Below are positions 29,151 to 60,001 of a stretch of DNA of 64,000 nt, piece after piece. Within the stretch, counting starts at the first letter, position 1. Every line of letters begins with the position of its first letter. This DNA comes from Butyricicoccus sp. OM04-18BH (GTDB lineage Bacteria > Bacillota > Clostridia > Oscillospirales > Butyricicoccaceae), in contig NZ_QULN01000002.1 of the NCBI RefSeq assembly GCF_003481705.1, forward strand, positions 248,001-312,000, given 5' to 3'. The notes under the pieces were generated by a model, which saw nothing but the letters and a program-made list of their open reading frames with translations, did not search any database and was not told the DNA's origin. A program made the position numbers and the translations under genes.

Positions 29151-29162
29151 GCTTCTTTGTCA

Positions 29163-30459: not shown

Positions 30460-30504
30460 AAAAAAAGCTGATACCCCCTGTGAAATATCACAGAAGTCAT
30501 CAGC
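30460..30504 (-). terminator. Attenuator terminator of the fluoride riboswitch
   Basis: GCTGAT...ATCAGC stem (30467-30504) with internal wobbles followed by seven T on the minus strand; its 5' arm includes the conserved 3' part of the aptamer, so ligand binding and termination are mutually exclusive. Confidence 0.8.
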
Positions 30505-30550
30505 AGTAACTGCGGTTTCGGCATGCGCCGCGGGAGAACTTCATTCCCTT
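30490..30550 (-). ncRNA. Fluoride (crcB motif) riboswitch
   Basis: Minus strand: GGGAATGAAGTTCTCCC stem-loop, the pseudoknot-forming ACCGC segment, and CTGATGACTTCTGT, all characteristic of the fluoride aptamer. Precedes the antiporter. Confidence 0.9.
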
Positions 30551-30565
30551 TTTATTTGCAGACCT

Positions 30566-34808: not shown

Positions 34809-35850
34809 CGACGCAAAAAAACTCATCGACCGTCTTGCGCGCGAGCACAGCCTCTCAAAGGAGGACTATGCGTTCCTTGTGCGCGCGCAGGACGAAGAGA
34901 CCGCAGCGTATGCGGGGGCGCTTGCCGCCGGTGTCCGGCGTGAGGTCTATGGCACGGACGTTTATATCCGCGGTCTGATCGAGATCGGAAATATCTGCCG
35001 CAACGACTGCCTGTACTGCGGCATTCGCCGCTCCAACACGCACGCCGACCGCTACCGGCTGACCGAGGACGAGATCTTCGAATGCGCGTGCGAGGGCTAT
35101 ACGCTCGGCTTCCGCACCTTTGTCATGCAGGGCGGCGAGGACGGCGCGTTCGGCGTTGATCCGATCTGCCGCACGGTACGCCGCATCAAGCGAAAATTCC
35201 CGGACTGTGCGGTAACGCTTTCGCTCGGTGAATTTCCGCGGGAAGCTTACGAGGCTATGTTTTCCGCCGGCGCAGACCGCTATCTGCTGCGGCATGAGAC
35301 AGCAGACCGGACGCACTATGAAAAGCTGCATCCGGCGGAAATGTCGTTCGAAAACCGTATGCGCTGCCTGCATGATCTGAAGGAAATCGGTTTTCAGACC
35401 GGCTGCGGCTTTATGGTCGGCTCGCCGTTCCAGACACCCGAAACACTCGCTGAGGATTTTAAATTCATCGAAACCTTCCGCCCTGCGATGTGCGGCATCG
35501 GCCCGTTCATTCCCCAGAAGGACACTCCCTTCGGCGACAGACCCGCAGGAACGGCGGAGCAGACGGTCTACCTGCTCTCGCTGCTGCGGCTCATGCAGCC
35601 GAAGCTGCTGCTTCCGGCCACTACCGCCCTCGGAACCATCCTTCCGGACGGACGCGAACGCGGGCTTGCCGCCGGAGCGAATGTCGTCATGCCCAATCTC
35701 TCGCCGCTCTCCGTGCGAAAAAAGTACGCACTCTACGACGGCAAGCTGTGCACCGGCGAGGAGGCGGCGCAGTGCATCGGCTGCCTGTCGCGGCGTGTGC
35801 AGTCGGTCGGCGCGAATATCGTCATCGACCGCGGCGACGTAAAACCGTGA
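34801..35850 (+). CDS. hydE: [FeFe] hydrogenase H-cluster radical SAM maturase HydE
   Basis: 349 residues. CX3CX2C radical-SAM site in NICRNDCLYCGIR, GGEDG, and the C-terminal VMPNLSPL and YALYDGK region typical of HydE. Helps build the azadithiolate bridge of the H-cluster. Start at the ATG at 34801, overlapping the stop of the regulator gene. Confidence 0.95.
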   Translation: MNNDAKKLIDRLAREHSLSKEDYAFLVRAQDEETAAYAGALAAGVRREVYGTDVYIRGLIEIGNICRNDCLYCGIRRSNTHADRYRLTEDEIFECACEGYTLGFRTFVMQGGEDGAFGVDPICRTVRRIKRKFPDCAVTLSLGEFPREAYEAMFSAGADRYLLRHETADRTHYEKLHPAEMSFENRMRCLHDLKEIGFQTGCGFMVGSPFQTPETLAEDFKFIETFRPAMCGIGPFIPQKDTPFGDRPAGTAEQTVYLLSLLRLMQPKLLLPATTALGTILPDGRERGLAAGANVVMPNLSPLSVRKKYALYDGKLCTGEEAAQCIGCLSRRVQSVGANIVIDRGDVKP

Positions 35851-41499: not shown

Positions 41500-41513
41500 A
41501 AAAATTTTTGAAT
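41500..41513. repeat. Left flanking direct repeat of the prophage (candidate attL core)
   Basis: AAAAATTTTTGAAT, repeated exactly at 52681-52694. Lies just beyond the groESL promoter. Confidence 0.55.
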
Positions 41514-41564
41514 TTTTTTTGAACAATGCGTGTTGTACCTGTGTTTTAGCGGCCGTTCCCCTTG

Positions 41565-41590
41565 TTAGCACTCAATCGAAAGAGTGCTAA
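41565..41590. promoter_or_regulatory. Second CIRCE-like element
   Basis: TTAGCACTC and GAGTGCTAA perfect, but the spacer is 8 nt instead of 9. No gene starts near it; by the 14-bp repeat it falls inside the mobile element. Confidence 0.8.
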
Positions 41591-41726
41591 TGGATGTTTT
41601 GTTCTGCTTTTTGTTTGTAATCGGTATAATTTTGAGTTTATACACCATAAAAAGTTCGAACCATTTTTGCCCATTAAAACAGTATTGATGCATTGTATAT
41701 TCGCGTATATTTAAGGAAAAAGTGAA

Positions 41727-41786
41727 TAAGTTCTCATAAGTTCTCGTAAGTTACCCTCAAAAGTGTGTAAAAAAGTGTGTAAGCTA
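41727..41786. repeat. Phased repeats and arm-type sites beside the integrase gene
   Basis: Three copies of TAAGTT(CTC) start at 41727, 41737 and 41747, exactly 10 bp apart, followed by two copies of AAGTGTGTAA (41758-41786). The pair recurs at 52570-52597. Likely Xis and integrase arm-binding sites, by analogy with Tn916 and lambda. Confidence 0.55.
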
Positions 41787-41793
41787 CAGAAAA

Positions 41794-42942
41794 TCAAACT
41801 TCACCAAAAGCTTTCTGAAACTCGTGTTGTGCGCTGTCTAGATCTGCATGGCTGTACAGATCTAAGGTCATTGCCGTGGTGCTGTGTCCCATAAAATATT
41901 GCAAACTCTTAATATTCATATTTGACCTCTGAGCGTTAGTGCAGAAGGTGTGTCTTAACACATGAGGTGTCACATGAGGGAAGTCGTTATGCTCCTTCGT
42001 TAGCTTCTTTGTCATTCGTTCGAAACCAGAGCAGAGGTTTGATGGAGCTATCGGATTGCCGTTGTTCGAAAGGAAGAGAAAACCACAGATGCCATCCAGA
42101 GACGGCTCAACGGTCGTATCCCTACGTTCTCGTAACACCTTCTTCAGGGTTTGATATGCCCTGCTCGTCATCGGGATGTAGCGATCTCCACTTTTAGTTT
42201 TAGGAGTTTCGATTTTTAACCCTTCTTTGGTGTATGAGATCTGTCTGCTTACATGAATGCGCCTGAGCTTAAAGTCAATATCCTGCATCGTCAGCCCACA
42301 CAATTCTCCAGCTCTCATTCCTGTATCGATCAAAATGACAGCTACATCGTGCCATCTCCCGCCCTGTGTGGCTAGAAATTCAAGGTATAATTTCTGTTGC
42401 TTTGGGGTGAGCGCCTCTCTAGTTTCAGCATCGTTTGCAATTATAGAACCGAGCTTAAAATGGAACGGATTTCGTTTAATGTAGCTATCTTCTACGGCCA
42501 TTTCGAAAGCCGGCCGAAGAATATTTTGAAAAGAAGCAATAGTACCTCTAGAAAGTCCGCCCGCACTCAGTTCCTTGAACCAGGCTTTGCATTCGCTGAT
42601 TCTGACATCGTGTATCTTTTGTTGAGCGATTGGATACTGCTTAATTCTTCTAACAATGCTGGTGACCGCATTGAGAGTTCCTGCTTTCGCCCATTTGTGC
42701 AATGTCACATAACGGTCGACCTGCTCAGCGACAGTAACATGAAGTCCGTCGTAGGTGAGCCCTTCATGTAGAATTTCCTCGAGAATAGACTCTTTTTCTC
42801 TTAGTTCATTTAGTTTTTTTGCATAAATATACTTCCATTTTGTAGTATATGGAACTTTGTATCGGTAGTAATACGTTCCGTTAGGGCGTTCGCCCTCTCC
42901 TTTGTGTAGGACCCGTCCGTTTTTGTCCTTGCGTCGAGTCAT
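41794..42942 (-). CDS. int: Tyrosine integrase, Tn916 type
   Basis: 382 residues. N-terminal arm-binding domain like Tn916 Int (KDKNGRVLHKGEGERPNGTYYYRYK), SAM-like core-binding domain (about 70-165), catalytic domain with Arg210, Lys250, His327, Arg330, His353 and nucleophile Tyr363, all intact. Stop is TGA. Located next to the left end, typical for a prophage or ICE. No internal TAG. Confidence 0.95.
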   Translation of the reverse strand: MTRRKDKNGRVLHKGEGERPNGTYYYRYKVPYTTKWKYIYAKKLNELREKESILEEILHEGLTYDGLHVTVAEQVDRYVTLHKWAKAGTLNAVTSIVRRIKQYPIAQQKIHDVRISECKAWFKELSAGGLSRGTIASFQNILRPAFEMAVEDSYIKRNPFHFKLGSIIANDAETREALTPKQQKLYLEFLATQGGRWHDVAVILIDTGMRAGELCGLTMQDIDFKLRRIHVSRQISYTKEGLKIETPKTKSGDRYIPMTSRAYQTLKKVLRERRDTTVEPSLDGICGFLFLSNNGNPIAPSNLCSGFERMTKKLTKEHNDFPHVTPHVLRHTFCTNAQRSNMNIKSLQYFMGHSTTAMTLDLYSHADLDSAQHEFQKAFGEV

Positions 42943-43012
42943 TTCAACTCCTTCCTACTTAAAATGCTCAATCTAATATTATTATACAACATTTTAAGAT
43001 TATTTCAAATAC

Positions 43013-43222
43013 TTATAACGAAAAAGAAGTGTCTATAAACGCAGACATCTTTTTTCGCTTTATCATCCTTTTGCTGCCGATCCAGAGAACGTATGGACAG
43101 TCTTCACCTTCTGTTAATTCTCGGATTTTATTTTCTCCCAAATTAAAGTAAGCCGCGGCCTCTGGTATTGATAACAGCTCCTTCTCCCAGATCGGTATAT
43201 CAATTTTCTTCTATCTGCTGAT
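43013..43222 (-). CDS. xis: Excisionase (Xis), Tn916 type, with in-frame TAG and no normal start
   Basis: About 64-69 residues. IDIPIWEKELLSIPEAAAYF, GENKIREL, and the basic end IKRKKMSAFID match Tn916 Xis (TDIPIWE..., IGENKLRRL, IKRKQFEKIID). The only frame upstream has TAG at 43211-43213 and, three codons further, ATC at the place where a start should be: AGGAG lies 8 nt before it. If TAG is sense and ATC initiates, the protein is 69 residues; otherwise translation must start at ATT 43202-43204. Stop TAA. It lies 70 bp upstream of int. Confidence 0.75.
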
Positions 43223-43236
43223 GGAAATCTCTCCTC

Positions 43237-43265
43237 TTGATTTTCTCGAACACACGTTCTATAAT
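43237..43265 (+). promoter_or_regulatory. Rightward phage promoter
   Basis: TTGATT (43237-43242), 17 bp, TATAAT (43260-43265), 18 bp before the 43283 gene; it overlaps the xis ribosome-site region. Confidence 0.65.
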
Positions 43266-43282
43266 AAACGTGAGGTGATGAT

Positions 43283-43546
43283 ATGAACATTCGATATAAC
43301 GGCACCCCGCCCGATGCTATTCGATTCCGGCCAGAGTACGAAGTGGTCGAAGTTTTCTCCGAGTCTGCTTCGAACCTCCCGACTTCACTTAGATACAAAG
43401 GCAAGATGTTTAACATTCAGACTGTCGGCCGCAAAGTATTGAACTGCGAGCTTCAGGCAATCGAGTACCATATCACGATCGGTAAGCACAAAACCAAACT
43501 CTGGCAAGATAAAGCCGGCACTTGGTATGTCCGCCCTAAAGTTTGA
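43283..43546 (+). CDS. Small phage protein, unknown
   Basis: 87 residues, soluble, beta-rich looking, no known motif: contains RYKGKMFNIQTVGRKVLNCE and ends WQDKAGTWYVRPKV. GAGGTG ribosome site and a good promoter, then a terminator right at the stop: an independently transcribed rightward gene next to int-xis, the place where lysogeny-control or moron genes often lie. No function claimed. Confidence 0.65.
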   Translation: MNIRYNGTPPDAIRFRPEYEVVEVFSESASNLPTSLRYKGKMFNIQTVGRKVLNCELQAIEYHITIGKHKTKLWQDKAGTWYVRPKV

Positions 43547-43572
43547 GGCACCCCGAAGGGTGCCTTTTTTTT
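43546..43572 (+). terminator. Terminator of the 43283 gene
   Basis: Stem AGGCACCC/GGGTGCCT, loop CGAA, eight T. Confidence 0.9.
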
Positions 43573-43589
43573 ACGAATATCCGTTCGAT

Positions 43590-44105
43590 TTAAGCTCCGG
43601 TCGAGCCGATGCCGCCGGTTCTCTTCCCTCTAGGTTCATCGTCAACAGTGACGCCATATGGGACGAACACGCCCTGCATGAAGCGGTCGCCCGCTCGCAG
43701 ATGAAGCGTCTTGCCTTCGCGGCCATCGTTTGTGATCTTCGCCATGATGTGACCTTCGTTCTCGGCGAAAAAGTAATCACAATCCACGATCCCCGTGGAG
43801 TTGTCTAACTGCATGCGATACTTGAAGCCCATGGACGAGCGCGGAAAAAGCATCAGCACCCATCCTTCCTCCATGTGGCAGCGCATACCGGTCGGGATCA
43901 TTGCCGACTCACCCGGCTCAAGGATGATGTCATACGGCACGCGGAAGTCATATCCTGCACTGCCTTCGGTCGCGCGATCAGGGAAAACGAGGTCGCGCCA
44001 CATATCTTCGATGCAGCTCTCTGAGATCAGAGGGTTGCATTTTTTTACGTCTGCCGTGAACTGTGGGTAGCTCACGGTGTCAAATTCTGCTACGGTTAAA
44101 TACAA
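43590..44105 (-). CDS. dut: Prophage dUTP diphosphatase
   Basis: About 171 residues from a TTG at 44103-44105, which has GGAGG 7 nt upstream (an ATG at 44118-44120 contains that ribosome site and is less likely). Motifs RATEGSAGYDF, PRSSMGFKYRMQLDNSTGIVD and GGIGSTG are complete. Roughly half identical to the host Dut at 31008. Overlaps the end of the prophage nrdG by 10 nt, but only if nrdG is read through its TAG. Stop TAA. Confidence 0.93.
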   Translation of the reverse strand: MYLTVAEFDTVSYPQFTADVKKCNPLISESCIEDMWRDLVFPDRATEGSAGYDFRVPYDIILEPGESAMIPTGMRCHMEEGWVLMLFPRSSMGFKYRMQLDNSTGIVDCDYFFAENEGHIMAKITNDGREGKTLHLRAGDRFMQGVFVPYGVTVDDEPRGKRTGGIGSTGA

Positions 44106-44599
44106 TGTTTGTCCTCCCATAAGGTAATTTTCCCGCTCGCCGCGGTCTTTTTTATATCAATTACGCGCTGGTTGGTACTTCCGACCCACGGCGCGTTTAT
44201 GTCTCTTTTGGTCTCCAGATATTCTCCATCGACAATGACATCGGCCAGTCCCACGGCAGGTAAAGAGCAAACCTACTCATAGGAATAGCCAGTGTACAGC
44301 CAAATGGTCTTATTCGGAAATTCCTCACGGATTGTCTGGAGCAAGCGAGTCACTGCTCCACGATTGCCCGGGAACAGAGGGTCGCCGCCAGACAGTGTAA
44401 TTCCGTCGATATAATCTTTCTGAAGCTCTGCACGAATCTCGTCCATCGCTTCTTTGTCAAATGGGATACCAGACATCTGTTCCCATGTCTGTGGGTTCTG
44501 GCAGCCGGGGCACGCATGAGCGCACCCCGATACCCATAATACGACACGCAGGCCGGTTCCGTTCAGCATGTCATCCTTGGTAATGTTATGATAATTCAT
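44096..44599 (-). CDS. nrdG: Prophage NrdG activase with in-frame TAG at codon 109
   Basis: 167 residues when the TAG at 44273-44275 is read as an amino acid; 108 if it stops. The host NrdG is 166 residues and has Gln109 at exactly this position (YTGYRWEQ versus YTGYSYE-TAG). After the TAG, homology continues: LADVIVDGEYLET, then STNQRVIDIKKT against SANQRVIDVRRT in the host. CAHACPGC iron-sulfur site and GGDPL are intact. No other stop or frameshift. Ends TAA. Confidence 0.93.
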
Positions 44600-44609
44600 G
44601 TTTCACCTC

Positions 44610-47600
44610 TTACATGCTGACGCGGTCTTTTATCTCTGCGTTCTTAGCGTCGTTGTATCGTGTCTTGCCGTGGACACGAGTATAACCAAGATAGCCATTC
44701 ATCCTATCAATCTTTGTGACGTCAGTCGATCCGCACTTCGGGCAGACATCCATATCTAACTGTTCATACCCGCACTTCTCACAGTACGCCAACGACAGGT
44801 TTACGCCTTCGTAGAATCCTAGTTTCATCGCTCGGCGAATCAGCGAACGGAGGGCTTCTTTGTTGTAAGATACCGGGTACCGACAATACTGGATTTTGCC
44901 GCCATTGAACAAATCCCAGAAGCGATTTTCAAGATCCTGCTTCTGTGGAGGAGTAATGTCCTCCCAAACGCCGCAATGGAAACTGTTCGACACATACGGT
45001 CGGTCGGATACACCCTTTACAATGCCATACTTCTTGCGGAACTGTTCAATCTGTAATCCACAAAGGGACTCGGCCGGTGTTCCGTAGAGAGCGTACAGAA
45101 TGTGGTCTGCTTTTTTGAACTCCTCAGCCTTCTTGTTGATGTACTGCATCACTTCCAGCGCGAATGTGCCATCCTCGACGATAGACTTGCCATTGTATAG
45201 CTCCTGCAGTTCATTCAAAGCAGTAATGCCGAATGATGCGGTCATTGGCGGGAGCAGCTTGCCAATCTTCTCATCCGGTTCAAGATGGCCGCCGAGGAAG
45301 CCTCCCTGACAGAAGCCAAGTGGATTAGTAGAAGCCTTCTTCTCGGCCAGATAATCGTAGGTCTTCTTATGAAGATTCCGAATCATCTCGAGATAGTAGT
45401 CAAGCAGCTCGTAGAAATCACGGTTCTCCTGACGAGCTTTTGCAAGGATCATCGGGAGGTGGAGCGAAATTGCGCCGAGGTTAAATCGGCCAACGAAGAC
45501 GGGTTTGTCGTTCTCGTCTTCTGGGTGCTCTCCTCCTCGTTCAAACCAAGGCGAGAGCGAAGCTCTACAACCCATGAGTGACACGACGCGGCCATACTTC
45601 TTATACATAGAAGGAATATAGCCCTCGCCGGTTAACGAAAGAAAATCTGGATACATTGCCTTGGTGCTGCAATCTACTCCGCACTCAAAGACATCTTCCA
45701 TCGGTTTCCCCTCACCATGAAGCTCTTCATCGTAAAGGAACGTCAGTTTCGGGAACAATACAGGCTTCTTATGACCAGCAGCTCCCTGACCGCCTGCTCG
45801 GACATTCATACAAGTCATGGATGCCATTCGACCAAAACGAGAATTGTCAAGACCGAACGAAACTGCAATGAACGGATAGTCGCCGCGACTGGAACCAACC
45901 GTGTTGAAACGATATTCCCAAGACTGGAATCCCTGCTCCATATCACGCTGAACCTTCTTCACAGCATACTCATCGGCGGCGGTCAGTACATCCTCGTGGT
46001 CGCCAAGATTGTTGTAAGCCGCAATTTCTGTGTACTCCTCAAAGTATTTCTGGTACGATTTTTCGGCATAAGGAGCCAAAATCTTGTCTACTTCAGGGAT
46101 GGTGAATCCGCCATACTGACAAGCGGCCGCGCTGATTGCAACATCAGAGATAACATCGAACGCCACGTCAAGCGTCTTTGGCTCGTTGTACCAGACATTG
46201 CCCATCTCAAAACCGCCAGTTAGGACGTTCTCCATGTCGAAAAGGCAGCAGTTTCCGGTGGAGATTCCACCGTCCAACAAGAAACTATGATCGTCTTCTA
46301 CCTCAAGACACCATACCTGAGCATTGCTGTTCAGTTTTGCAGGTTCAATTTCGATAACACGCCAAGCACCGTTTCTCATCTGCGACGAAGAGCATCCATA
46401 CATAACGGTAGTGTCGCTCCGTTTCCCGTAATTGGTCGCACGATCTGTAATGTCTTTCTTGTTCGTGACATAATAGCCTGAGATATTCAACAGGTCTTCG
46501 ATAAAGTGGTTGACATACCCAGTAACCTGAATACCCCTGTATTCACTCGAAGCGGTAGTCGCGCGCTTATGACCATCTGCGCACATGAGTCCGTTCATAA
46601 AAAAGACGGCGTTGTTGTAATCAATTTCCAAATAAGGAATGTCTTTTACTCCTACTTGAAGCATTGATACAAAGGAATCTCCGGCGCACGACGGTGGATT
46701 TGTTATACTGTATCCGCACTCAATGAAACGTGAAGCAAACTTTCTTTTTTCTCCGCATAATCTTACAGTTATGAACTTACGAACGCACCCATCGCTTTTT
46801 GTTTCTCCGTTTAAGGAACCATCGCCCATGGCAAAACCTTTACACCAAAGTTTCTTCTCCATCAACGACATTTCTTCCCATCGAATGTTGGTAATATCAG
46901 GCACTTGCCACAGAATATCTCCAACTTTTAGATCCGTTGTTTCTGTGCCGTCTTTTAGAATCCAACGATGATTGGGTGTGCAATAAATTTCTTTATGATT
47001 GCTGGTCGGAGTCCCTTTTGAAATCACGACTTTCTGAATCGGCTGATGGCCGTAGGCATGAACAATAGCCTTCTTCCACCTTCCTTTGTGTGTCCGGACG
47101 ATTACCTCATCTCCGTCACAGAAATCATAAAAAGATTTTACTCCAGATGATGTAATGAACTTCGTGTCTCGTCTAAAACAATTCATCGTGTCAAGTCGTG
47201 CAGATCGGTCATGAATGTAGATGTAACCGTCTTTCATAGCTTCACGCTCTTCTCGATTCAAGAAGAATTTCTTATACAATGCACTGGACAGCTCATTGTA
47301 AATCAAACTACGCTGAGTCGGAACCAGAGCGGAGTCCGTGTTGGCATTATTTCGGTCACCGATATAACGAATTGCCTGACTCTTGCGGTATACGTCATCG
47401 AGCATATGGACAAAATCCTGCTTATAATTATGGTAATCACGATAACACTTGGCCACATTTGGAGCTACATCGTCCAGAGCTCTCTCGACCGCATTGTGTA
47501 CGTTCGCGACCGGAGCAACGTCCCCGCCATGTTCTGCAAGATGAGCCAACGTCAAATCAACAACGCGTCGGCACTGTTCGTCGGACAGGTCATACATAGC

Positions 47601-47687
47601 ACGATTAGCGGACTTACGAATCGCGGAAACGATCTTTTGACTGGAGAACGCTTCGATAGAACCATCTTTCTTCTAGATATTCAGCAT
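44610..47687 (-). CDS. nrdD: Prophage class III ribonucleotide reductase with intein and in-frame TAG
   Basis: 1025 residues when the TAG at codon 5 (47673-47675) is sense; the start ATG at 47685-47687 has AAGGG nearby and gives the ATP-cone MLNI-TAG-KKDGSIEAFSSQK, like the host MVRVIKKDHTREAFNIQK. Without read-through the first usable ATG (47595-47597) deletes 30 residues of the cone. Removing the 310-residue intein leaves 715, against 706 in the host. Zinc cysteines CEKCGYEQ and CPKCGSTD and the glycyl loop RMNGYLG are intact. Ends TAA. Confidence 0.93.
46251..47180 (-). other. Intein with homing-endonuclease domain in prophage NrdD
   Basis: 310 residues (170-479), inserted between DTMN and CCLFD, a junction kept uninterrupted in the host NrdD. 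Begins with Cys (CFRRDTKFI), block B CTPNHRW, LAGLIDADG-type blocks WCKGFAMGDGSL and FMNGLMCADGHK, block F WCLEVEDDHSFLL, ends GISTGN before the +1 Cys. The penultimate residue is Gly instead of the usual His. Confidence 0.93.
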
Positions 47688-47698
47688 AGGCACCCTTC

Positions 47699-48238
47699 TT
47701 ACTTAACTTCCTCGCGGCGCTTTTCAAAGTAGCCGCTGATTACCTTTTCTACAAAATCGTCGGCCTGCTTGCCGAGATCATCCAACGTCCCGTTATTAAC
47801 TACGAGATAATCGTAGTCGTACTGGTCGACGTCGCGGTCTGCATGGTTGCTCTGAATTGGCTCGACGCCTGGCCTCTTGATCAGAAGCGTCAATGCGTCA
47901 AACTTCTTTCGAGCTTTCTCAATCTCCTCCGGCTCTCGGATGTGCATGAAGATAATCATGTCATCCTCAGCTGCATAGCGATTGTAAACCGACTCGAGAT
48001 ACTTCATCGGAGCATCGGAATAATCGGTCGCGAGATCCTTCAGGTCGGACAGAAACTTTCTAGACTTCTCATCCTTCTCCCCTGCCCAACCAAGGATTTC
48101 CGCGGCGTCTTTCACCCGGTCGACGGAACTGATCTGAATGGTCAGCGCATCGTGGAAATAGGAAGCGTCCTGACAAAGCTGACAGAACGTATCCTTTCCG
48201 CTTCTCGCTGCGCCATTTACAATAACTGCTCTCGCCAT
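47699..48238 (-). CDS. Phage deoxynucleoside-monophosphate kinase-like protein
   Basis: 179 residues. P-loop NGAARSGKDTF at residues 8-18, a later IIFMHIREPEEIEKARKKF lid-like region and NHADRDVDQYDYDYLVVNNG typical of phage dNMP kinases. Would phosphorylate dNMPs for phage DNA synthesis. Lies between thyX and nrdD, 11 bp before nrdD starts. No internal TAG. Confidence 0.8.
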   Translation of the reverse strand: MARAVIVNGAARSGKDTFCQLCQDASYFHDALTIQISSVDRVKDAAEILGWAGEKDEKSRKFLSDLKDLATDYSDAPMKYLESVYNRYAAEDDMIIFMHIREPEEIEKARKKFDALTLLIKRPGVEPIQSNHADRDVDQYDYDYLVVNNGTLDDLGKQADDFVEKVISGYFEKRREEVK

Positions 48239-48239
48239 A

Positions 48240-49109
48240 TCACACCTCTGCCTTCTGCGGATGGCCGCAAGACATCTTGCCTTCGGGACATTTTCCGCTC
48301 ACACACGGAGCGCCGGCGTTATCAAAGATATTCGGAGCAACCTGCTGACATAAAACTAGCATTTGGGACGCCAACTCTCTAATCTCGTCCTGAGCGCGAT
48401 TACAGCACCGTAGAGAGAAGAAATGGAGCAATTCGCGTGCATTCATGGTTACAGTGAAGTTCGTTTGAGCGGCATTAGGGAGCACGCTGCGGGCATTCTC
48501 GTTAGCAAACTTCTCGGCCGCCGAGCGATCCTTTTTGAACTCCTTGTAGAGCTTCTGATCTTCCTCGGTAGCGTTCGGGTCTGTGTGCATTGCCTCCATC
48601 TTGCTGTCCAGAGCAAGGTAAAAATACTTCGCGTTGTTCTGGAAGGCGATGTTCAGGCCGTCATGCGTGATGAACTTCGCATATTTCTCGCGGAGCTTTT
48701 CGCTCATCAGATACGCATGAATATCGCGGTAGGCCGATGTGATGGTCTGCATGCAGTCGCCAAAGATGCGAGCTGTGTTGATGTTGTTCTTGACCGCTTC
48801 CGGGATCGAAAAGTCCATGTTGTTGCTGTTGATGTAGCGCTGACTTGCGACGCTGAAGGAGGCGACACGGTGTCGCGTAATCTGCGCGAGCAATGCACGG
48901 GAAACTCCTTCCACGCCGAACGTGAAGTTCGCGTGTTCCAGAACAGAGAGATGGCCGGACTTCTTGATCTACTGAATGAACTTGGCCGCGGCCTCGTTAT
49001 CAATACCCTCCAGGATGTCATTGGACGGAGCCGACGAGTAACAACCCTTGCCGGCTGCAGCGACTACAAGCTCCGGTGCCGGAGTCCATGCTAAAAGGTT
49101 TACCTTCAT
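48240..49109 (-). CDS. thyX: Flavin-dependent thymidylate synthase ThyX with in-frame TAG
   Basis: 289 residues when the TAG at 48969-48971 (codon 47, in KFIQ-TAG-IKKSGH) is sense. The start ATG at 49107-49109 then gives the family N-terminus and a 4-nt ATGA overlap with the preceding gene. The ThyX motif RHRVASFSVASQR and LEHANFTFGVEGVSRAL are intact; without read-through only the part from a GTG at 48914 remains, missing the FAD-binding N-terminus. Makes dTMP from dUMP, complementing Dut. Ends TGA. Confidence 0.92.
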
Positions 49110-49402
49110 TCGCTCACCTTCTTTGCTTCCCGAAGAGCCTTCAGTCGTGCAGCGCCTGCCGCCTTCTGCTCATCAGTCATATTTGACTTTCGCGGCGGCG
49201 TAATCTTGAACCACTTCTTCGGGAAAACGTAGTTCTTTGAGCCGTTGCATTCGACGGTCATCTTGATTTCATCTGGACGCTCTGCACAAAGCTTATCCAG
49301 CTTGCGCTGAAGCACGGTGTCGTAAGTAAATACACATGCCTCAGTCTCCTGCTGATTGTAATTCGCAATGGTTTCGCGTTCCAGTGCTGAAAGATTTGAC
49401 AT
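49106..49402 (-). CDS. Conserved small phage protein
   Basis: 98 residues beginning MSNLSALERETIANYNQQE, with LDKLCAERPDEIK and KNYVFPKKWFKITPPRK; this type recurs in clostridial phages and conjugative elements without assigned function. GGAGG 8 nt before the ATG; ATGA overlap with thyX. Confidence 0.8.
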   Translation of the reverse strand: MSNLSALERETIANYNQQETEACVFTYDTVLQRKLDKLCAERPDEIKMTVECNGSKNYVFPKKWFKITPPRKSNMTDEQKAAGAARLKALREAKKVSE

Positions 49403-49404
49403 TC

Positions 49405-49650
49405 TTATTCCTCCTTCGGCTTGTCTGGGTTCTTTACCTTCATCGCGCACAGCCTTGCGATATCGCCGAGCACCTTCTGATAGTCGGCGAGCTTCTTGCG
49501 TGGCTTCTTCTTGAACGTGTCGATCAGCTCATTGATCGCACCCGTCAGGCCATAAGCCGCAGTATACATACCGCGCTGAAACTGCTGCTCGAGCTGAGTG
49601 CGGAGCATTGTTTCAAATTCTTCTCTGGTTGGCTTCTTGTCTTCTTCCAT
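49405..49650 (-). CDS. Small phage protein, unknown
   Basis: 81 residues, highly charged, mostly helical (REEFETMLRTQLEQQF, KKKPRKKLADYQKVL). Ends 2 bp before the next gene, so clearly part of the leftward operon. Function unknown. Confidence 0.7.
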   Translation of the reverse strand: MEEDKKPTREEFETMLRTQLEQQFQRGMYTAAYGLTGAINELIDTFKKKPRKKLADYQKVLGDIARLCAMKVKNPDKPKEE

Positions 49651-49660
49651 GTGTGCCTCC

Positions 49661-49852
49661 TTAAATATCGTCTACTTCTTCAATTCCGTGATACTGGATC
49701 GCGCAATCTTGACAGCAGAAAAGGTTGTCATCGTCGTCTCGCCAGAGTTCCCAATCCAGCGAGAGTTCTTCTCCACATCTTTCGCAGCGTCCGATGATTT
49801 CGGGAACGTAATCGGGATCGCGCGGGCTTTTCGAAAACAGCGGTTCAGTCAT
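49661..49852 (-). CDS. Small zinc-binding phage protein, unknown
   Basis: 63 residues with paired cysteines CERCGEEL and FCCQDCAIQYH, a treble-clef-like zinc site. The ATG overlaps the stop of the upstream 53-residue gene (TGATG), indicating coupling. Function unknown. Confidence 0.7.
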   Translation of the reverse strand: MTEPLFSKSPRDPDYVPEIIGRCERCGEELSLDWELWRDDDDNLFCCQDCAIQYHGIEEVDDI

Positions 49853-50013
49853 CAAGACAGCAACCCTTCATGCTCGTCGCTGCAGCATTCACAGTCACAG
49901 CACTCATCGTAATCGTTGTAGTCGGCTTCATCGATGTCGGCGGTGATGCGGGTGGTCATCTCGCCCTTCTCGCTGAAATATTCCGTAACCTGATGGATAT
50001 GTCTCTTAATCAT
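49852..50013 (-). CDS. Tiny Cys-rich acidic phage protein
   Basis: 53 residues: IKRHIHQVTEYFSEKGEM, then an acidic stretch and CCDCECC. AAGGAG 6 nt before the ATG and a TGATG overlap with the downstream gene support it although it is short. Function unknown. Confidence 0.65.
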   Translation of the reverse strand: MIKRHIHQVTEYFSEKGEMTTRITADIDEADYNDYDECCDCECCSDEHEGLLS

Positions 50014-50023
50014 GTTTGCTCCT

Positions 50024-50554
50024 TTACGCGCTGGTGATATGGTACTCGTCGAGATACCAGTATCCGGATTTATTTTTTGTGCATTTGCTTACGTAGATGA
50101 TGTCGCCTTCAGCGATCGGCTTCTGGTTGTACTGCCGAGACCTCAACGTCATTCGGACGCGCTTACCAGAGCCAAGGGATTGAGCGAAGCAGGCATAACC
50201 CCAAGGCTTTCCTTTCTCTTTGTCGAGCAATGGTCGAAAGTCCGTCACAAGAACTCGACGGCGGTCTTCTTCTCTGCCGGTCTGAATGTCTACATATCCG
50301 AGAACGTCTCGCTGGTTCGCGATCTTCGTCTTAAACGGCAGATCTTGAATTCCCGCAGAGAGAACTCTCTCTTCACATTCATGAAGCACCTGCGTAATCA
50401 CGAGCTTCAGCTCTTCCTCAATCTGTTCGTCTATCATGGTGAGCTGTTCGACCGCTTCTTCCGAATTAGTCTTCTTGATCTCTGCTCGGAGACGTTTCTT
50501 CTCGTCGCGCAAAGCGCTCAGCTGAAGACTTGCGAAGGTATGGGTTGACCTCAC
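50024..50554 (-). pseudogene. 3' remnant of a large phage gene, probably replication
   Basis: About 170 residues remain, ending EGDIIYVSKCTKNKSGYWYLDEYHI; the visible part has a coiled segment (RDEKKRLRAEIKKTNSEE) and an OB-like C-terminus (LGYVDIQTGREEDRRRVLVTD). It begins abruptly at 50554 with only a GTG and no ribosome site, directly at the junction with the opposite-strand fragment, so its 5' part is lost. The C-terminal style suggests a phage polymerase or helicase tail, but I cannot assign it. Confidence 0.6.
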
Positions 50555-50828
50555 CCCCGGTTATGAGACAGAGGCGGTATTTACTACGCTGTCGGCGGCT
50601 GCTTGGAGTAACAAGACGCAGGCTCTGACGATCAATGGGCTCGCCGCTAATCAGAACGGGATTATTAGTCTTACGCAGGACATCTCTTCTGATGCGCTGA
50701 AGGCTGCTAAAAAGGCTGCACTTCGTGCGACCGGTCAGGCTAAGAATTCTCTGACCATGACTGCTGATGGGGCTGTTCCTGCAGTGGATATTCCTGTTGT
50801 CGTTATCTTGATGTCAACTGCGAATTAA
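50526..50828 (+). pseudogene. 3' remnant of a phage tail-fibre-like gene
   Basis: About 100 codons ending TAA with no start codon or ribosome site; a TGA lies just upstream in frame. The text TPGYETEAVFTTLSAAAWSN, LTINGLAANQNGIISL and VPAVDIPVVVIL is like the C-terminus of tail-fibre/receptor-binding proteins. The upstream part of the gene was removed by the deletion that fused it to the 50024 fragment. Confidence 0.65.
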
Positions 50829-50857
50829 AGGAAGCCGGGGTCTCCCCGGCCTTCTTT
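50829..50857 (+). terminator. Terminator after the tail-fibre fragment
   Basis: Stem GAAGCCGGGG/CCCCGGCCTTC (one bulge) then TTTT. Confidence 0.75.
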
Positions 50858-50927
50858 TACGACTTTTCTGTGAAACTAGATTTTGAAAAGTTCTAAAAAT
50901 CCGATAAATCAATAAAAAGGAGAACTT

Positions 50928-51227
50928 ATGGCTCGTAAAAAGAGAAAGAAAAAGTTCGAATTTTCCAAACTGATCCTTGTGTTTGAAACGGTGCTTGTGG
51001 CCTATGTGTCACATCGCGTTCTCGGCTTCGTCGGCCGGGCAATTGAGCTGGATTACACCGGTTCCCTGCCCTACCTCACTACGTTCATCTCTGCTGTCTG
51101 GGCAGCATATGGCGCAAGTGTGAGCTTCTATCAGACGAAGAGCTGCAAGGAGAATGTAAGAAAGATCGAGGTCGCGCCGCCAGTTTCTTATGCTGAAGAT
51201 TACAGCAACGACGACCGCGACTGTTAA
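50928..51227 (+). CDS. Small phage membrane protein, lysis-module neighbour
   Basis: 99 residues: a very basic N-terminus (ARKKRKKKFEFSK) and two hydrophobic segments (about 16-38 and 46-66), then a polar tail. AAGGAG ribosome site. It precedes the holin by 28 bp, a position often taken by an anti-holin or holin accessory protein; that role is a guess. Confidence 0.65.
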   Translation: MARKKRKKKFEFSKLILVFETVLVAYVSHRVLGFVGRAIELDYTGSLPYLTTFISAVWAAYGASVSFYQTKSCKENVRKIEVAPPVSYAEDYSNDDRDC

Positions 51228-51255
51228 ATAAATGAATTTGTAAGGAGGTTATCTC

Positions 51256-51612
51256 ATGGATACCAACCAGATTGTACAGCTGATTGTGGCTATTTTGACG
51301 GGTCTCGCGACCTGTATTCCTCTGGCCGTTAAGCTCGTCTAGTACGTGCAGAACGCAACCAAGGAAAAGAACTGGGCGAATCTGCTCGGCCTCGTTATGT
51401 CTCTGATGGAGCAGGCTGAGAAGAAGTTCGACGATGGTGCAACCAGAAAAGAATGGGTTATGGCGATGGTCAAGGCCTCGGCCGATTATATCAACTATCC
51501 AGTTGACGAGGATACGCTGTCCAAGATGATCGACAGCCTCTGCGATATGTCCAAGGTAGTTAACGGCTCAGGCGGAGACAAGGGCAAAAATCAGGAGGCT
51601 GACGCTGAATGA
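51256..51612 (+). CDS. Phage holin (LLH type) with in-frame TAG
   Basis: 118 residues when the TAG at 51340-51342 (codon 29) is sense. One N-terminal membrane helix (IVQLIVAILTGLATCIPLAV) is followed by V-K-L-V-TAG-YVQNATKEKNWANLLGLV and a helical cytoplasmic tail, as in clostridial LLH holins where this junction is continuous. AAGGAGG ribosome site before the ATG; ATGA overlap with the endolysin. Ended at the TAG it would be a 28-residue peptide. Confidence 0.88.
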
Positions 51613-52445
51613 AGACTCAGTATGGCTTTACACTTATGACAATCGGAGAGTTTGAGACTTGGCTGATCCAGTAGAAGGTGACTCGCAGGATTACCGTAAT
51701 TCAGGAGCATCATACTTGGTCTCCGAGCTACAAGCAGTTCAATGGCTCGAACCATCTCCAGCTGCAGAAGAATATGCGAGACTACCATGTCAACAACGCA
51801 GGCTATGCAGACATTGCACAAAATTTCACTGTGTTCCCTGATGGTATGATCTGCACCGGCCGCTCGATGAACGTTGCTCCGGCTGGTTGCCGAGGAGCTA
51901 ATACCAACGGCATCTGTATTGAAAATCTTGGCAACTTCGACGTTGGTGGCGACAAGATGAATGCTGCCCAGAGGGATGTTATCGTTCGCATGGCCGCGGC
52001 GCTTTTGAAGAAGTTCAAGCTCTCGCCGGAGACCGGCATCACCTATCATGCGTGGTGGACGGACAACGGCAAGTCGTTGGGAACCTACATCGCGGGACGT
52101 TCTTGCAAGACCTGCCCGGGGACTGCTTTCTTCGGAGGCAACACTCGCGCAAGCTATGACAAGAACTTGAAGCCACTGATCGTGAAAGCTATGAATGGCA
52201 CCTACAACGTACCGGTAAAGGAGGAAGAAGAAGTGACTCAGGAACAGTTTAACAAGATGATGGATAACTATCTGGCAAGCCTTGCTAAGCAGCAGCCGCA
52301 GGCCTGGTCTAAAGAGGCTCGCGATTGGGCTGAAGGTTCTGGCCTGATCAAGGGCGACGAGCACGGCAACAAGCAGTACGAGTCTTACTGCAGCCGCGAG
52401 CAGATGGTTCAGTTTCTGTATCGTTTTAAGGACATTGTCAAGTAA
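51609..52445 (+). CDS. N-acetylmuramoyl-L-alanine amidase (endolysin) with in-frame TAG
   Basis: 278 residues when the TAG at 51672-51674 (codon 22, WLIQ-TAG-KVTRRI) is sense. Amidase_2 domain: VIQEHHTWSPSYKQFNG, the second metal His in ITYHAWW and SCKTCPG; C-terminal segment 200-278 may bind the wall. Its ATG overlaps the holin stop. Without read-through there is no plausible start that keeps the first strand of the fold. Ends TAA. Confidence 0.92.
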
Positions 52446-52456
52446 GTCTAAATTTC

Positions 52457-52482
52457 GGGGCGCGAATGCGCCCCATTTTTTT
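52457..52482 (+). terminator. Terminator after the endolysin
   Basis: GGGGCGC, loop GAAT, GCGCCCC, then A and seven T. Confidence 0.9.
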
Positions 52483-52500
52483 AGGAATTTTCTCAATAGA

Positions 52501-52540
52501 AAAAGACGACATTATCGCAGTGAATAACGTCGTCTTTTAT
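52501..52540. terminator. Second terminator near the right end of the prophage
   Basis: Stem AAAAGACGAC/GTCGTCTTTT, extended by ATTAT/ATAA pairs; works on both strands. Confidence 0.75.
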
Positions 52541-52569
52541 GTTAAAATTTTGAGCATTTTAAGGTTCTC

Positions 52570-52597
52570 CAAAAGTGTGTAAGTTGTGTGTAAGCTA
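52570..52597. repeat. Right-end arm-type repeats
   Basis: CAAAAGTGTGTAA, GTT, GTGTGTAAGCTA; the same two blocks occur at 41758-41786 with a 4-nt spacer. Confidence 0.6.
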
Positions 52598-52680
52598 TTA
52601 CATTTTTTGAACTAAGAACATCAAATTAAACGAAATAGAACTAAACTACAAACTTTTACAATCCCTAAACGCGTTACATA

Positions 52681-52694
52681 AAAATTTTTGAATA
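52681..52694. repeat. Right flanking direct repeat (candidate attR core)
   Basis: AAAAATTTTTGAAT, identical to 41500-41513. The stretch 52598-52680 holds nothing else recognisable. Confidence 0.55.
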
Positions 52695-53939: not shown

Positions 53940-54007
53940 CTATCTCGATATTATTTCTTTCTTATGATAGCTTTTTTACGCGCATTTGTCAAGATTTGCT
54001 GCGTTTT

Positions 54008-55540
54008 CTATTCTCTCCGAGCGGCAAGATAACGCAGCGGATGCAGGCCGCACAGCCGCAGCAGCGCAAGACAGAGCATTCCTGCCCCGGTGAGCGTCAT
54101 CGCAAGCGCAAGAACAGGACTTGCTACATGATCAGAAAACAGAAGCGCAAACAGCCGCGTCCAGAGGCCAGCCGCCGCGCCGCACATCAGCGGCAGTCCG
54201 AGACGCCGCATCGGACGCAGCGCAAAGCCGGTCGCATGATGCAGAACGGCAAGATTAAAAACGGCCGCTCCTGCGCCGCTCAGCAGCATCGCGAGAAGAT
54301 ACCCGTAAATGCCGAGCGCCGGGCGTGAGCACCATCGAATCACAAGTACGAGCTGTACGCATTCCGCCAGAACGGCGGTCAAAACGCTCCGGTTCTGCAA
54401 TCCGAGTGCGTTCAGCAGGCCGGAGGTGATCATCTGGTAGTACGTGACAACTGCCGCTGCGCCGGTGAGCGCTGCATACCGCAGTGTGAGCGGCTGCGCG
54501 AACAGCAGCAGGCTGAGCGAGGGTGCGAGCGGAATGAGCACAGCGGTCGCCGGGATGCCGATCAGTCCGACCGTCATGACCGCCCGGCCGACGAGGGCGC
54601 GCACACGGGCGCGGTTCCCCGTAGCGTGCGCCGCCGTCACAATCGGCAGCAATGCAGTGCCGATCGAGCCGATAAGCGCCGAGGGCAGCAGCATGAGCGG
54701 CAGCGCCATGCCGGAAAGCGTTCCGAGCGCGGCAAGCGCCTGCTCTGCGTCCAGTCCTGCCGTCATCAGCCGCCGCGGCAGGATGACCGAACCTGCCGCC
54801 GAAAGCAGGTTGGCCGCGAGTGCGGACAGCGAAAGCGGTATGGCAATTACCGCAAACTGCCGCGCAAGCGCAGCATCGACTCTGACAGCCGTGCAGCGCG
54901 CCTCTCCCCGTTCCCGGCGGAACAGAAGGCTGAGCAGCAGCACGCTGAACACCTCGCTGACTGCCATTCCGGCGAAGATCAGCTTGGCCATTGTCCCGCA
55001 GTCGCCGCCGACCGTGTGCAGCAGCACGCCGACTACTGCAATGCGCACCAGCTGCTCGCCTGTTTCACTGATCGCGGTGTACTGCACGCATTCCAGTCCG
55101 ATGAACAGCGCCTTGAGGATATTTTCAATCCCGGTCAGCATAAGGCAGAGCAGCATGAACGGAAACGCCTGTGCCGCGTGCGGATTGCCGAGAATGCCTG
55201 CTGCAATTTGGTCGCCGCACAGCAGCAGCCCTGCTGCGCTTGCGAACGCAAGCGTAAAAAACACTGAAAATGCGAGACGAAGCACCGCACCGGTTTTCCC
55301 TTTCTCTCCTGTTGCCTCGCACGCCGCCGACAGCCGTGAGCACGCCATCGTCACACCCGAAAGGCAGCCGGTGTGCAGCACCAGATACACCGAATTAGCG
55401 AGCCGGTACATGCCGAGACCCTCTGCACCTGCAAAGCGGCTGAGCATCACGCGATAGACAAAGCCGAGCGCCTGCAGGGCGATATTGCCGCACGCGAGCA
55501 CCCCGGCCGCATACAGCACTGTCTTTTTCCGAAACCGCAC
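54008..55540 (-). CDS. SpoVB-like MOP-superfamily flippase
   Basis: 510 residues, about 14 membrane helices. Polysaccharide-flippase signature near the N-terminus (GNIALQALGFVYRVMLSRFAGAEGLGMYRLA) typical of SpoVB/YtgP lipid II or polysaccharide flippases. I start at the GTG at 55538-55540 with GGGAGG upstream; longer frames run through the tgt terminator and tgt itself. It ends in TAG, the only chromosomal gene in this window I find to do so. Confidence 0.85.
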   Translation of the reverse strand: MRFRKKTVLYAAGVLACGNIALQALGFVYRVMLSRFAGAEGLGMYRLANSVYLVLHTGCLSGVTMACSRLSAACEATGEKGKTGAVLRLAFSVFFTLAFASAAGLLLCGDQIAAGILGNPHAAQAFPFMLLCLMLTGIENILKALFIGLECVQYTAISETGEQLVRIAVVGVLLHTVGGDCGTMAKLIFAGMAVSEVFSVLLLSLLFRRERGEARCTAVRVDAALARQFAVIAIPLSLSALAANLLSAAGSVILPRRLMTAGLDAEQALAALGTLSGMALPLMLLPSALIGSIGTALLPIVTAAHATGNRARVRALVGRAVMTVGLIGIPATAVLIPLAPSLSLLLFAQPLTLRYAALTGAAAVVTYYQMITSGLLNALGLQNRSVLTAVLAECVQLVLVIRWCSRPALGIYGYLLAMLLSGAGAAVFNLAVLHHATGFALRPMRRLGLPLMCGAAAGLWTRLFALLFSDHVASPVLALAMTLTGAGMLCLALLRLCGLHPLRYLAARRE

Positions 55541-55595
55541 CTGCCTGCACCTCCCCCTCGGGTCAGCATATGAACGAACACAGTTCCGTAAAACC

Positions 55596-55626
55596 AGAAA
55601 AGCGCCTGCCCTCACAGCAGACGCTT
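55596..55626 (-). terminator. tgt terminator
   Basis: Stem AAGCGTCTGC/GCAGGCGCTT with one wobble, then TTTTCTGGTTTT. Confidence 0.75.
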
Positions 55627-55647
55627 CCTGTTGTATCCTGCGCGTCC

Positions 55648-56790
55648 TTAGATGCGCTTGGACATTTTTTCGCTGTATTCTGCACGGAATTCCTCGAAGC
55701 GGCCCTCGTCGAGCGCATCGCGGATCTCCTGCATCAGATGGTTGTAGAACCAGAGGTTGTGCATGACCAGCAGACGCTGCGACAGCATCTCGCCGCTCTT
55801 GAGCAGGTGGCGCAGATACGCGCGGCTGAACCGGCGGCAGGTCGGACACTGACAGCCTTCCTCGATCGGGCGGTCGTCGGTCTGGTACTTGGCATTCATA
55901 AGGTTCAGGATGCCGCTGTGCGTGAACAGATGGCCGTGGCGCGCGTTGCGAGTCGGCATGACGCAGTCGAAGAAGTCGATACCGCGCGCAACGCCCTCGA
56001 TGATGTTGCTCGGCGTGCCGACGCCCATCAGATAGCGCGGCTTGTTCTGCGGCGCGTGCGGCAGGACGACATCAAGAATATGGTACATGACCTCGGTGCT
56101 TTCGCCGACGGCCAGACCGCCGATCGCATAGCCCGGCAGATCAAGTTCGGAGATCGCCTGCATGTGCTCGATGCGCAGGTCATCGTAGGTGCCGCCCTGA
56201 TTGATACCGAACAGCAGCTGATGCGGATTGACGGTATCAGGCAGGCTGTTGAGACGGTCGAGCTCGGTCTTGCAGCGTCTGAGCCAGCGCGTCGTGCGGT
56301 CGATGGAGTTCTTGACGTACTCGCGCGGCGCCGGGTTTTCGATGCACTCATCAAACGCCATGGCGATATCCGAGCCGAGATTGGACTGGATGCGCATGCT
56401 CTCCTCGGGACCCATGAAGATTTTGCGGCCGTCGACGTGCGAATGGAAGGTCACGCCCTCCTCCTTGATCTTGCGCAGCGTCGCAAGCGAGAAAACCTGA
56501 AATCCGCCCGAGTCGGTCAGCATCGGGCCGTCCCAGCGCATGAACTTGTGCAGACCGCCCATCTGACGAACGATCTGATCGCCCGGACGAACGTGAAGAT
56601 GGTAGGTATTGGACAACTCGATCTGGCAGCCAAGCTCCTTGAGGTCGAACGCATCGACCGCGCCCTTGATCGCGCCGGCCGTGCCGACGTTCTGAAAGAC
56701 CGGGGTCTGCACCACGCCGTGTGCCGTGCAGAATTCGCCGCGGCGCGCGCGGCCTTCGGTTTTGATTAGGTTAAATTTTCCGATTTCCAT
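55648..56790 (-). CDS. tgt: tRNA-guanine transglycosylase
   Basis: 380 residues. Exchanges G34 for preQ1 in queuosine tRNAs. DSGGFQVFSL (catalytic Asp), GGLAVGE, MPTRNARHG and the zinc site CQCPTCRRFSRAYLRHL are intact. Follows queA on the same strand, 42 bp apart. Confidence 0.97.
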   Translation of the reverse strand: MEIGKFNLIKTEGRARRGEFCTAHGVVQTPVFQNVGTAGAIKGAVDAFDLKELGCQIELSNTYHLHVRPGDQIVRQMGGLHKFMRWDGPMLTDSGGFQVFSLATLRKIKEEGVTFHSHVDGRKIFMGPEESMRIQSNLGSDIAMAFDECIENPAPREYVKNSIDRTTRWLRRCKTELDRLNSLPDTVNPHQLLFGINQGGTYDDLRIEHMQAISELDLPGYAIGGLAVGESTEVMYHILDVVLPHAPQNKPRYLMGVGTPSNIIEGVARGIDFFDCVMPTRNARHGHLFTHSGILNLMNAKYQTDDRPIEEGCQCPTCRRFSRAYLRHLLKSGEMLSQRLLVMHNLWFYNHLMQEIRDALDEGRFEEFRAEYSEKMSKRI

Positions 56791-59753: not shown

Positions 59754-59778
59754 AAGAAGGAAAAGTATCTGATACAGA

Positions 59779-59951
59779 TAGAGGCGCGGTTTTCATCAGT
59801 ATCGCCTGACAGGGTCCGCAAACCCGTTCATCAGCCGAAAAAGGGTCTTCCGCCGAAGTCGGTCGTTCTGTTGCGGCAGGACCGTACTGGATGCTGCGGA
59901 TAAAATCCCTGCGTCTGTCATCAGCAGAAATGCCGGTGGAGAGCTAAGCTG
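59779..59951 (+). ncRNA. Lysine riboswitch (L box)
   Basis: AGAGGCGCG at the 5' end, ATCAGTA, AAAGGGTC, GCCGAAGT, CTGGATGCTGC, TGTCATC and GGTGGAGAGCTA in the L-box order. Controls asd-dapA-dapB. Confidence 0.93.
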
Positions 59952-60001
59952 TGTTAGAAAGCGGCGGCGATTTTTCCGCTCTTTCTATTATAGTATAGGT
60001 C

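Follow-up and report, generated by a model that had tools for sequence, protein, structure and literature searches.

In-frame TAG codons in a prophage remnant: a possible fossil of early, sparse amber suppression

When all of the nonsense codons inside the genes of a dead prophage are TAG, were they once sense codons of a living phage, or is the element simply decaying? The question is raised by a 64,000-nucleotide stretch of Butyricicoccus sp. OM04-18BH (contig NZ_QULN01000002.1; hereafter the window, to whose positions the coordinates refer), in which an element at 41500-52693 carries one internal in-frame TAG in each of five genes: nrdG, nrdD, thyX, and the holin and endolysin genes. Judged by its sequence, the element is an 11.2-kb deletion derivative of a larger phage in the host chromosome. 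The explanation favoured here, to which only slightly better than even confidence is attached as a full chain from transfer RNA (tRNA) through CAG-to-TAG change to deletion, is that early, sparse amber suppression, with glutamine (Gln) as the predicted residue, arose in the parent phage and was fossilised in the remnant. The parent would have carried its own tRNA with a CUA anticodon reading TAG as Gln; CAG-to-TAG changes would have been nearly silent in such a phage, allowing a few TAG codons to accumulate in working genes; and a later deletion of about 110.7 kb would have taken out the place where a relative keeps a CUA tRNA, leaving the TAG-bearing genes in a remnant that has no amber-reading tRNA. 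Because the host uses TAG as a stop, the prediction is that all five genes are silent there or give shortened products. We infer that the direct parent had the CUA tRNA, that this tRNA inserted Gln, and that the TAG codons are older than the deletion.

In-frame TAG codons and the residues at their columns

A first-pass annotation of the window had counted six genes with one in-frame TAG each. All six codons are present, and five are internal: codon 109 of nrdG (44096-44599, minus strand; TAG at 44273-44275), codon 7 of nrdD (44610-47693, minus strand; 47673-47675), codon 47 of thyX (48240-49109, minus strand; 48969-48971), codon 29 of the holin gene (51256-51612, plus strand; phrog_6918; 51340-51342) and codon 22 of the endolysin (amidase) gene (51609-52445, plus strand; phrog_1493; 51672-51674). 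The sixth, at 43211-43213 in the Tn916-Xis-like gene xis (43013-43255, minus strand; PF09035, phrog_16129), is not countable. The phrog_16129 excisionase profile begins at xis residue 16 with profile position 2, and PF09035 at residue 19 with position 7; the TAG (residue 15) occupies the position of the start methionine, is therefore not an internal sense codon, and was dropped from the count. The first in-frame ATG, GTG or TTG past it is at 43141.

The reading frames are otherwise clean, as had been claimed: the 16 listed genes (3370 codons) contain no internal TAA or TGA and no frameshift. Reading TAG as sense gives full-length frames in the five genes, which table 11 breaks at 44273, 47673, 48969, 51340 and 51672, and the ATGA overlaps between holin and endolysin (51609-51612) and between the gene at 49106 and thyX (49106-49109) are real. 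Running gene prediction under codes 11 and 15, the check proposed, does not discriminate between them, the coverage of the whole window by open reading frames (ORFs) being 0.869 and 0.878, respectively.

The further point that no gene of the element ends in TAG is true (0 of 16) but carries no weight, TAG terminators being rare in host-like DNA anyway. Three sequences serve for comparison: the host-like genome G927, whose groEL is 92% identical to that of the window, the best among 340 genomes searched in that order, and two IMG/VR contigs with related phage DNA, G001 (IMGVR_UViG_2832442593_000001, 152,019 bp) and G694 (IMGVR_UViG_2832410175_000003, 175,415 bp). Over 200 kb of G927, 5 of the 161 genes scored have TAG as their terminator, and the figure for the presumed host flanks of G001 and G694 is 4 of 77; 0.5-0.8 TAG terminators would thus be expected in 16 genes, and their absence is uninformative. 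The flanks of the window itself have TAG at the end of 5 of 43 genes, several of these ORFs being doubtful. Among scored genes, TAG terminates 2 of 129 in G001 and 1 of 103 in G694; no significantly lower rate in phages than in the host emerges from this sample (3/232 versus 5/161, Fisher P 0.28).

The codons that relatives hold at the TAG columns are CAG in nrdG, nrdD and thyX and GAG in holin in G694, and CAG in thyX and endolysin and GAG in holin in G001; the thyX of the window is 68-69% identical to both copies. Wider alignments extend the pattern. Of the six aligned nrdG homologues that are at least 77% identical, five have Gln at the column and one has Glu; the other six aligned sequences have Glu (4), Asp (1) and Val (1). 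At the nrdD column, Gln is found in 75 of 83 close homologues, the remaining 8 starting at Met33, the first start past the TAG of the window; 37 farther homologues have Ile (24), Leu (8), Gln (2), Lys (2) and Gly (1). All 19 aligned endolysin homologues that cover the site have Gln (3 others do not cover it), and the distant locus L012 has Glu. The holin column is Glu in both relatives and Gln (CAG) in three loci of about 65% identity (L141-L143), with Lys also among farther homologues. Beyond the close group the commonest residue is Ile for nrdD, Met for thyX and Glu for nrdG. Gln thus prevails among close homologues in four of the five genes, but not in holin, for which the nearest have Glu and farther ones Gln or Lys. 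These columns indicate that most of the TAG codons derive from CAG; alone they do not reveal the meaning of TAG, since a random TAG too would quite likely have arisen from CAG (15-44% of sources in the codons of the element).

Some database proteins are short in a suggestive way: endolysin P0131 (99% identical, 131 members) starts at the GTG two codons past the TAG, and the nrdD products P0318-P0323, together with P0324 (94%) and P0325 (88%), start at the first start codon past it. These forms suggest, indirectly, that the same TAG codons may exist in other genomes.

The deletion and the CTA-anticodon tRNA

An exact 14-bp direct repeat bounds the element, AAAAATTTTTGAAT occurring as the attL core at 41500-41513 and as the attR core at 52680-52693. 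The phage-derived DNA between them matches G001 in two blocks, one at 144.7-151.1 kb, with the end of the polymerase gene, thyX, the kinase gene and dut, and one at 32.1-34.0 kb, with the end of the late gene, holin and endolysin; at 50,537 the match jumps from 144.7 kb to 33,999, so that about 110.7 kb, tRNA cluster included, is absent relative to G001. The earlier description of a deletion derivative inside a chromosome is thereby upheld. Both genes at the junction are truncated: a C-terminal fragment of a DNA polymerase III alpha-type gene (50024-50554, minus strand), residues 5-174 of which align to the end of a 1365-amino-acid G001 protein with PF07733, and the C-terminal fragment of a late gene (50537-50828, plus strand). 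That the latter comes from the tail region is a guess; the G001 genes at its counterpart have no match in Pfam. The loss of genes needed for growth (polymerase and late genes, and the region that holds the tRNAs in G001) is that of a cryptic prophage, whereas the remaining genes lack the mixed lesions of one, other damage consisting of the start region of xis and the two genes cut at the junction.

The phage parts of the relatives, with boundaries as read, are about 32-152 kb of G001, whose contig stops within the phage, and 1 to about 113 kb of G694, whose contig begins within it; they span at least 113-120 kb, both figures being lower bounds for that reason. The parent of the remnant may by comparison have been a temperate phage of at least 113 kb. 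The nrdG and nrdD of the window type are present in G694 (95% and, by segment, 92-98% amino acid identity) and G001 is without that form. The G694 nrdD (L154, contig positions about 109,262-111,217) matches in separate pieces, interrupted by a stop and a gap, an intron being the probable cause. Among the matches listed, the window integrase has only a partial one in G694 (27%) and none in G001, and there is none for xis in either relative; the integration module has therefore probably been replaced, unless in G001 it is located past the end of the contig.

Other searches returned little. An integrase search of viral contigs found no relative, and the endolysin gave nothing at E <= 1e-30 in 345 genomes of one order. 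A search of 87 genomes of the host-like family with the endolysin found no copy of the element and two partial matches at E <= 1e-20, neither spanning the TAG site (one of 75% across residues 113-219, at the end of a contig, and one of 56% across 204-276), and a scan of genome contigs gave three distant endolysin loci. Matches to thyX in 13 of 400 genomes of another family (44-60% by segment) have no internal stops.

The window contains no tRNA with anticodon CTA, and none is among the 44 distinct tRNAs found in the fetched tRNA stretches of G927. The tRNA cluster of G001, at 112.0-112.7 kb and hence inside the part missing from the remnant, includes one: it scores 50.3 bits to RF00005, with an encoded CCA, G73, one non-standard pair (A1-C72) and a 23-nucleotide variable arm. 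The proposed search of related phages for a tRNA-Gln with this anticodon is thus answered in part, a CTA-anticodon tRNA being found but its isotype being ambiguous among Leu, Ser and Gln: the nearest matches are Leu(GAG) at 0.70 and Ser(GGA), Leu(CAG) and Gln(CTG) at 0.68 each. Compared part by part with the G927 tRNAs (ARAGORN, tRNA stretches) and with those of G001 itself, it shares A1 and G73 with the host tRNA-Gln(CTG); among G927 tRNAs only Gln(CTG) and Trp have both. A DNA pattern of its D-arm and anticodon occurs only in G001 within the viral contig collection.

Both phages also carry a 93-nucleotide tRNA-Gln(TTG) (L020:8990-9082 in G001; 35,334-35,426 in G694) with a long variable arm, unusual for Gln; that of G001 is 0.81 similar to the tRNA-Gln of the host. 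Directly upstream of the CTA tRNA in both phages is a 56-nucleotide tRNA-like sequence (L022:12527-12582, L152:19024-19079) that lacks most of the anticodon arm and exceeds the RF00005 cut-off (46.3 and 44.7 bits). When 901 bases surrounding the CTA tRNA were scanned with Rfam, tRNAs and one sub-threshold plastid family came up, and no ribozyme; one study reports ribozymes beside phage suppressor tRNAs (PMC10879173).

Sense or nonsense

Decay of a dead prophage is the serious rival, and a real possibility, if one held with clearly less than even confidence. The genes would have become useless after the deletion, and five nonsense mutations would happen to be TAG, mostly by C-to-T change at CAG. 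The polymerase, the late genes and the tRNA region of G001 are gone from the element, the relatives keep sense codons at the TAG sites, the start of xis is damaged, and an origin in CAG is natural under decay as well, so that the Gln columns do not separate the two models. TAG is moreover the commonest nonsense outcome for the codon usage of the element, making up 47-53% of random nonsense changes (59% in a model of C-to-T and G-to-A changes). The first-pass annotation had expected decay to give mixed lesions; none of the frameshifts, TAA or TGA expected is seen, but the contrast is weaker than was implied, the probability under neutral decay that all of five nonsense codons are TAG being 0.023-0.041 (0.011-0.022 for six of six; transition/transversion ratio 1-6). 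The TAG-only pattern in the five genes is unusual, not overwhelming. That at least four of five TAG codons should come from CAG has a probability of 0.04-0.12 (transition/transversion ratio 3-6).

Rates of change tell somewhat more. CAG has become TAG at 3 of 69 aligned CAG codons relative to G694 and 2 of 55 relative to G001, near the rates of the synonymous change CTG to TTG (4 of 58 and 5 of 44); relative to G694, CGA-to-TGA (0/24), CAA-to-TAA (0/4) and TGG-to-stop (0/22) changes are absent, and one GAG-to-TAG change appears in the codon comparison with the relatives. Private missense changes, defined against 4, 83 and 14 close homologues, number 5 in nrdG, 4 in nrdD and 1 in endolysin, and these 10 stand beside three TAG codons: at least 3 nonsense among 13 changes has P = 0.02-0.04 if all are neutral. 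The private missense changes are also few for the age that decay demands. Five neutral nonsense changes correspond to about 110-156 neutral substitutions, and at ordinary rates of insertion and deletion that many should bring several frameshifts; there are none. The five private changes in nrdG sit at variable sites and avoid conserved ones (P 0.003, four close relatives), which also speaks against decay. Together, the missing frameshifts and the excess of nonsense changes favour TAG as a sense codon.

Several observations weigh against suppression in the parent. G001 has the CTA tRNA and yet its own versions of these genes are free of TAG, and among the DNA compared the TAG codons occur only in the dead remnant: the tblastn rows for relatives (84 for nrdG, 60 for nrdD, 39 for thyX, 15 for holin and 5 for endolysin, with some loci in several rows) show none at the five columns. 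The start of xis appears damaged. The CTA tRNA does not look clearly like a tRNA-Gln: its combination of a long variable arm and G73 is found only in Ser among G927 tRNAs, although the arm does not exclude Gln, because the phage tRNA-Gln(TTG) is also long-armed. The syntenic copy in G694 (L152:19086-19161) looks degenerate: its anticodon loop (TCTA) has 8 bases, a C-C mismatch interrupts the stem, and CCA is not encoded. The test of constraint is not positive for nrdD (P 0.32), in which 2 of 4 private changes strike invariant positions, as decay would have it, nor for endolysin, which has one private change (P 0.68). Short endolysins P0136 and P0137 start at Met56, so short protein forms have other causes too. 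Finally, the TAG codons crowd at 5' ends (codons 7, 22, 29 and 47; mean relative position 0.23), with P 0.03 when compared with CAG sites drawn at random and 0.016 when compared with uniform positions. This crowding is predicted by neither random sense use nor random decay, for which uniform positions would be expected; it is what one would expect of early stops that still leave a shortened product or of stops that serve as a translational lock.

The first of these, in which the standard code holds and early stops are tolerated or regulatory, with restart at the next start codon or low-level readthrough and with a shortened or scarce product sufficing, is unlikely. Four of the five TAG codons lie within the first 47 codons; a GTG follows two codons past the TAG in endolysin and holin, and nrdD has an ATG at codon 33; the shortened endolysin P0131 and the shortened nrdD products P0318-P0325 keep PF01510 and PF13597, respectively; and in-frame stops in bacterial genes are reported to be widespread and under purifying selection (PMC7918605). 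Against it, the stop in nrdG comes as late as codon 109 of 167, a restart at codon 31 would cost holin its N-terminal hydrophobic stretch, and one at codon 66 would cost thyX 65 residues. Nor does the model give a cause for stops that are all TAG or for Gln in four of five columns.

The lock is more speculative and is given slight credence. Amber codons at the 5' ends of DNA-precursor and lysis genes might form a translational lock opened only by the phage CUA tRNA. The remnant would then be a fossil of the first steps of a code change in a temperate Firmicutes phage, and its genes, having lost that tRNA, might depend for expression on a related phage that supplies it, whether by infecting the cell or by being induced there.

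Full reassignment to code 15 in the whole parent phage, as first proposed, shares the logic of TAG as Gln and is known in gut phages (PMC9523058, PMC11210395); here it is hardly credible. The element has only 6 TAG (xis included; 5 internal) against 100 CAG, so that TAG is not a regular sense codon across many genes. Related phages with sense codons at the TAG sites that end genes in TAG had been named beforehand as contrary evidence, and this has come about in part: G001 and G694 between them cover all five sites, always with sense codons, and end few genes in TAG, and because they do so the lineage is not one of code-15 genomes. The reading of TAG as Gln is therefore wrong as full recoding and plausible as early, sparse suppression. 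Two apparent signs of recoding in the relatives were rejected: TAG-to-CAG differences that long code-15 ORFs show when G001 is compared with G694, these ORFs being antisense to other ORFs and noise-like, and greedy code-15 gene counts on G001 (72 TAG in 43 ORFs), which are inflated by spurious ORFs. Recoding of the whole host is unlikely, a host gene with PF01943 (polysaccharide biosynthesis; about 53951-55849) ending in TAG, which indicates that the host uses it as a terminator, and CTA being absent from the 44 distinct G927 tRNAs.

Setting of the element and known systems

Outside the TAG-bearing genes, the element retains a tyrosine integrase gene (41794-42942, minus strand; PF00589, PF02920) with a Tn916-type N-terminal DNA-binding domain, an intact ORF and no TAG. 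The integrase and Xis, the flanking direct repeats and the otherwise continuous site mark a Tn916-type tyrosine recombinase integration (PF00589/PF02920/PF09035; G927); the empty site is seen in G927, where groES adjoins the next host gene, with 132 bp separating the matched blocks. A dUTPase gene (43590-44120, minus strand; PF00692) has a product 93.7% identical in amino acids to those of both G001 and G694, and a deoxynucleoside monophosphate kinase gene (phrog_139) lies at 47699-48238 on the minus strand; neither contains TAG, nor do four small ORFs (starting at 49106, 49405, 49661 and 49852) within 49106-50013 on the minus strand, of which those at 49106 and 49661 are matched in G001 and G694. 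The nrdD gene encodes an ATP cone (PF03477) besides PF13597, and an intein-like insertion matched by PF14890 at residues 228-476 with 25.8 bits, under its cut-off of 35.8; most close nrdD homologues (679-715 amino acids) are too short to hold such an insertion. The host flanks hold thiamine pyrophosphate (29059-29160), fluoride (30484-30557) and lysine (59771-59954) riboswitches.

The closest precedent is in the crAss-like phages of Yutin et al. 2021 (PMC7886860), where suppressor tRNAs can arise ahead of any codon change and one phage genome is starting to accumulate TAG: OFRY01000050 has incipient TAG suppression, and OKSC01000115 is a case of "suppressor pre-emergence", with a TAA suppressor and no codon changed yet. 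Shared with the present lineage are a suppressor tRNA (here a putative one), TAG starting in conserved genes (in OFRY01000050) and relatives with the standard code. The differences are that the phage here is integrated (temperate), that its host is presumably a different, Clostridia-like bacterium, that the copy with TAG is a remnant without the tRNA, and that the tRNA is known only from a relative with no TAG in these genes. In that last respect G001 resembles the Zeta crAss-like clade 8 phages (PMC12386605), which have a CTA tRNA and no suppression; they belong to another phage group and host and are not reported to include a TAG-bearing remnant.

The code-15 gut phages (crAss-like, PMC9523058; phAss-1, PMC10607447; Lak, PMC8346664) likewise have TAG inside genes, Gln columns and a CTA tRNA in the lineage. 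Proteomic evidence for TAG as Gln exists for two crAss-like phages (Peters et al., PMC9523058), and of 715 phages for which table 15 is predicted, 375 are reported to have a CTA tRNA (PMC11210395). Phassvirus phAss-1 has TAG in 41 ORFs (PMC10607447), whereas the remnant has one TAG in each of five genes and CAG as its normal Gln codon. Some alternatively coded prophages reside in standard-code hosts (PMC10746230, citing Borges et al. 2022): these too are integrated elements with stop-interrupted genes in a host that reads the codon as stop, but the present element, unlike them, has lost its structural genes and tRNA region. No description of a TAG-bearing prophage deletion remnant was found among the titles and abstract openings returned by searches of the open-licence PMC literature.

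With a probability of a few per cent, the nonsense codons of a dead prophage will all be TAG by chance, so that this pattern by itself is no proof of recoding. The interest of the locus lies in what it may record: the onset of stop-codon reassignment in a phage lineage is seldom observed, because recoded phages mostly show the end state. This lineage spans a large member with a CTA tRNA and standard codons, another with a degenerate-looking copy of that tRNA, and a remnant with TAG in five genes, and with more members sequenced it would make the order of events, the tRNA before the codons, directly testable.

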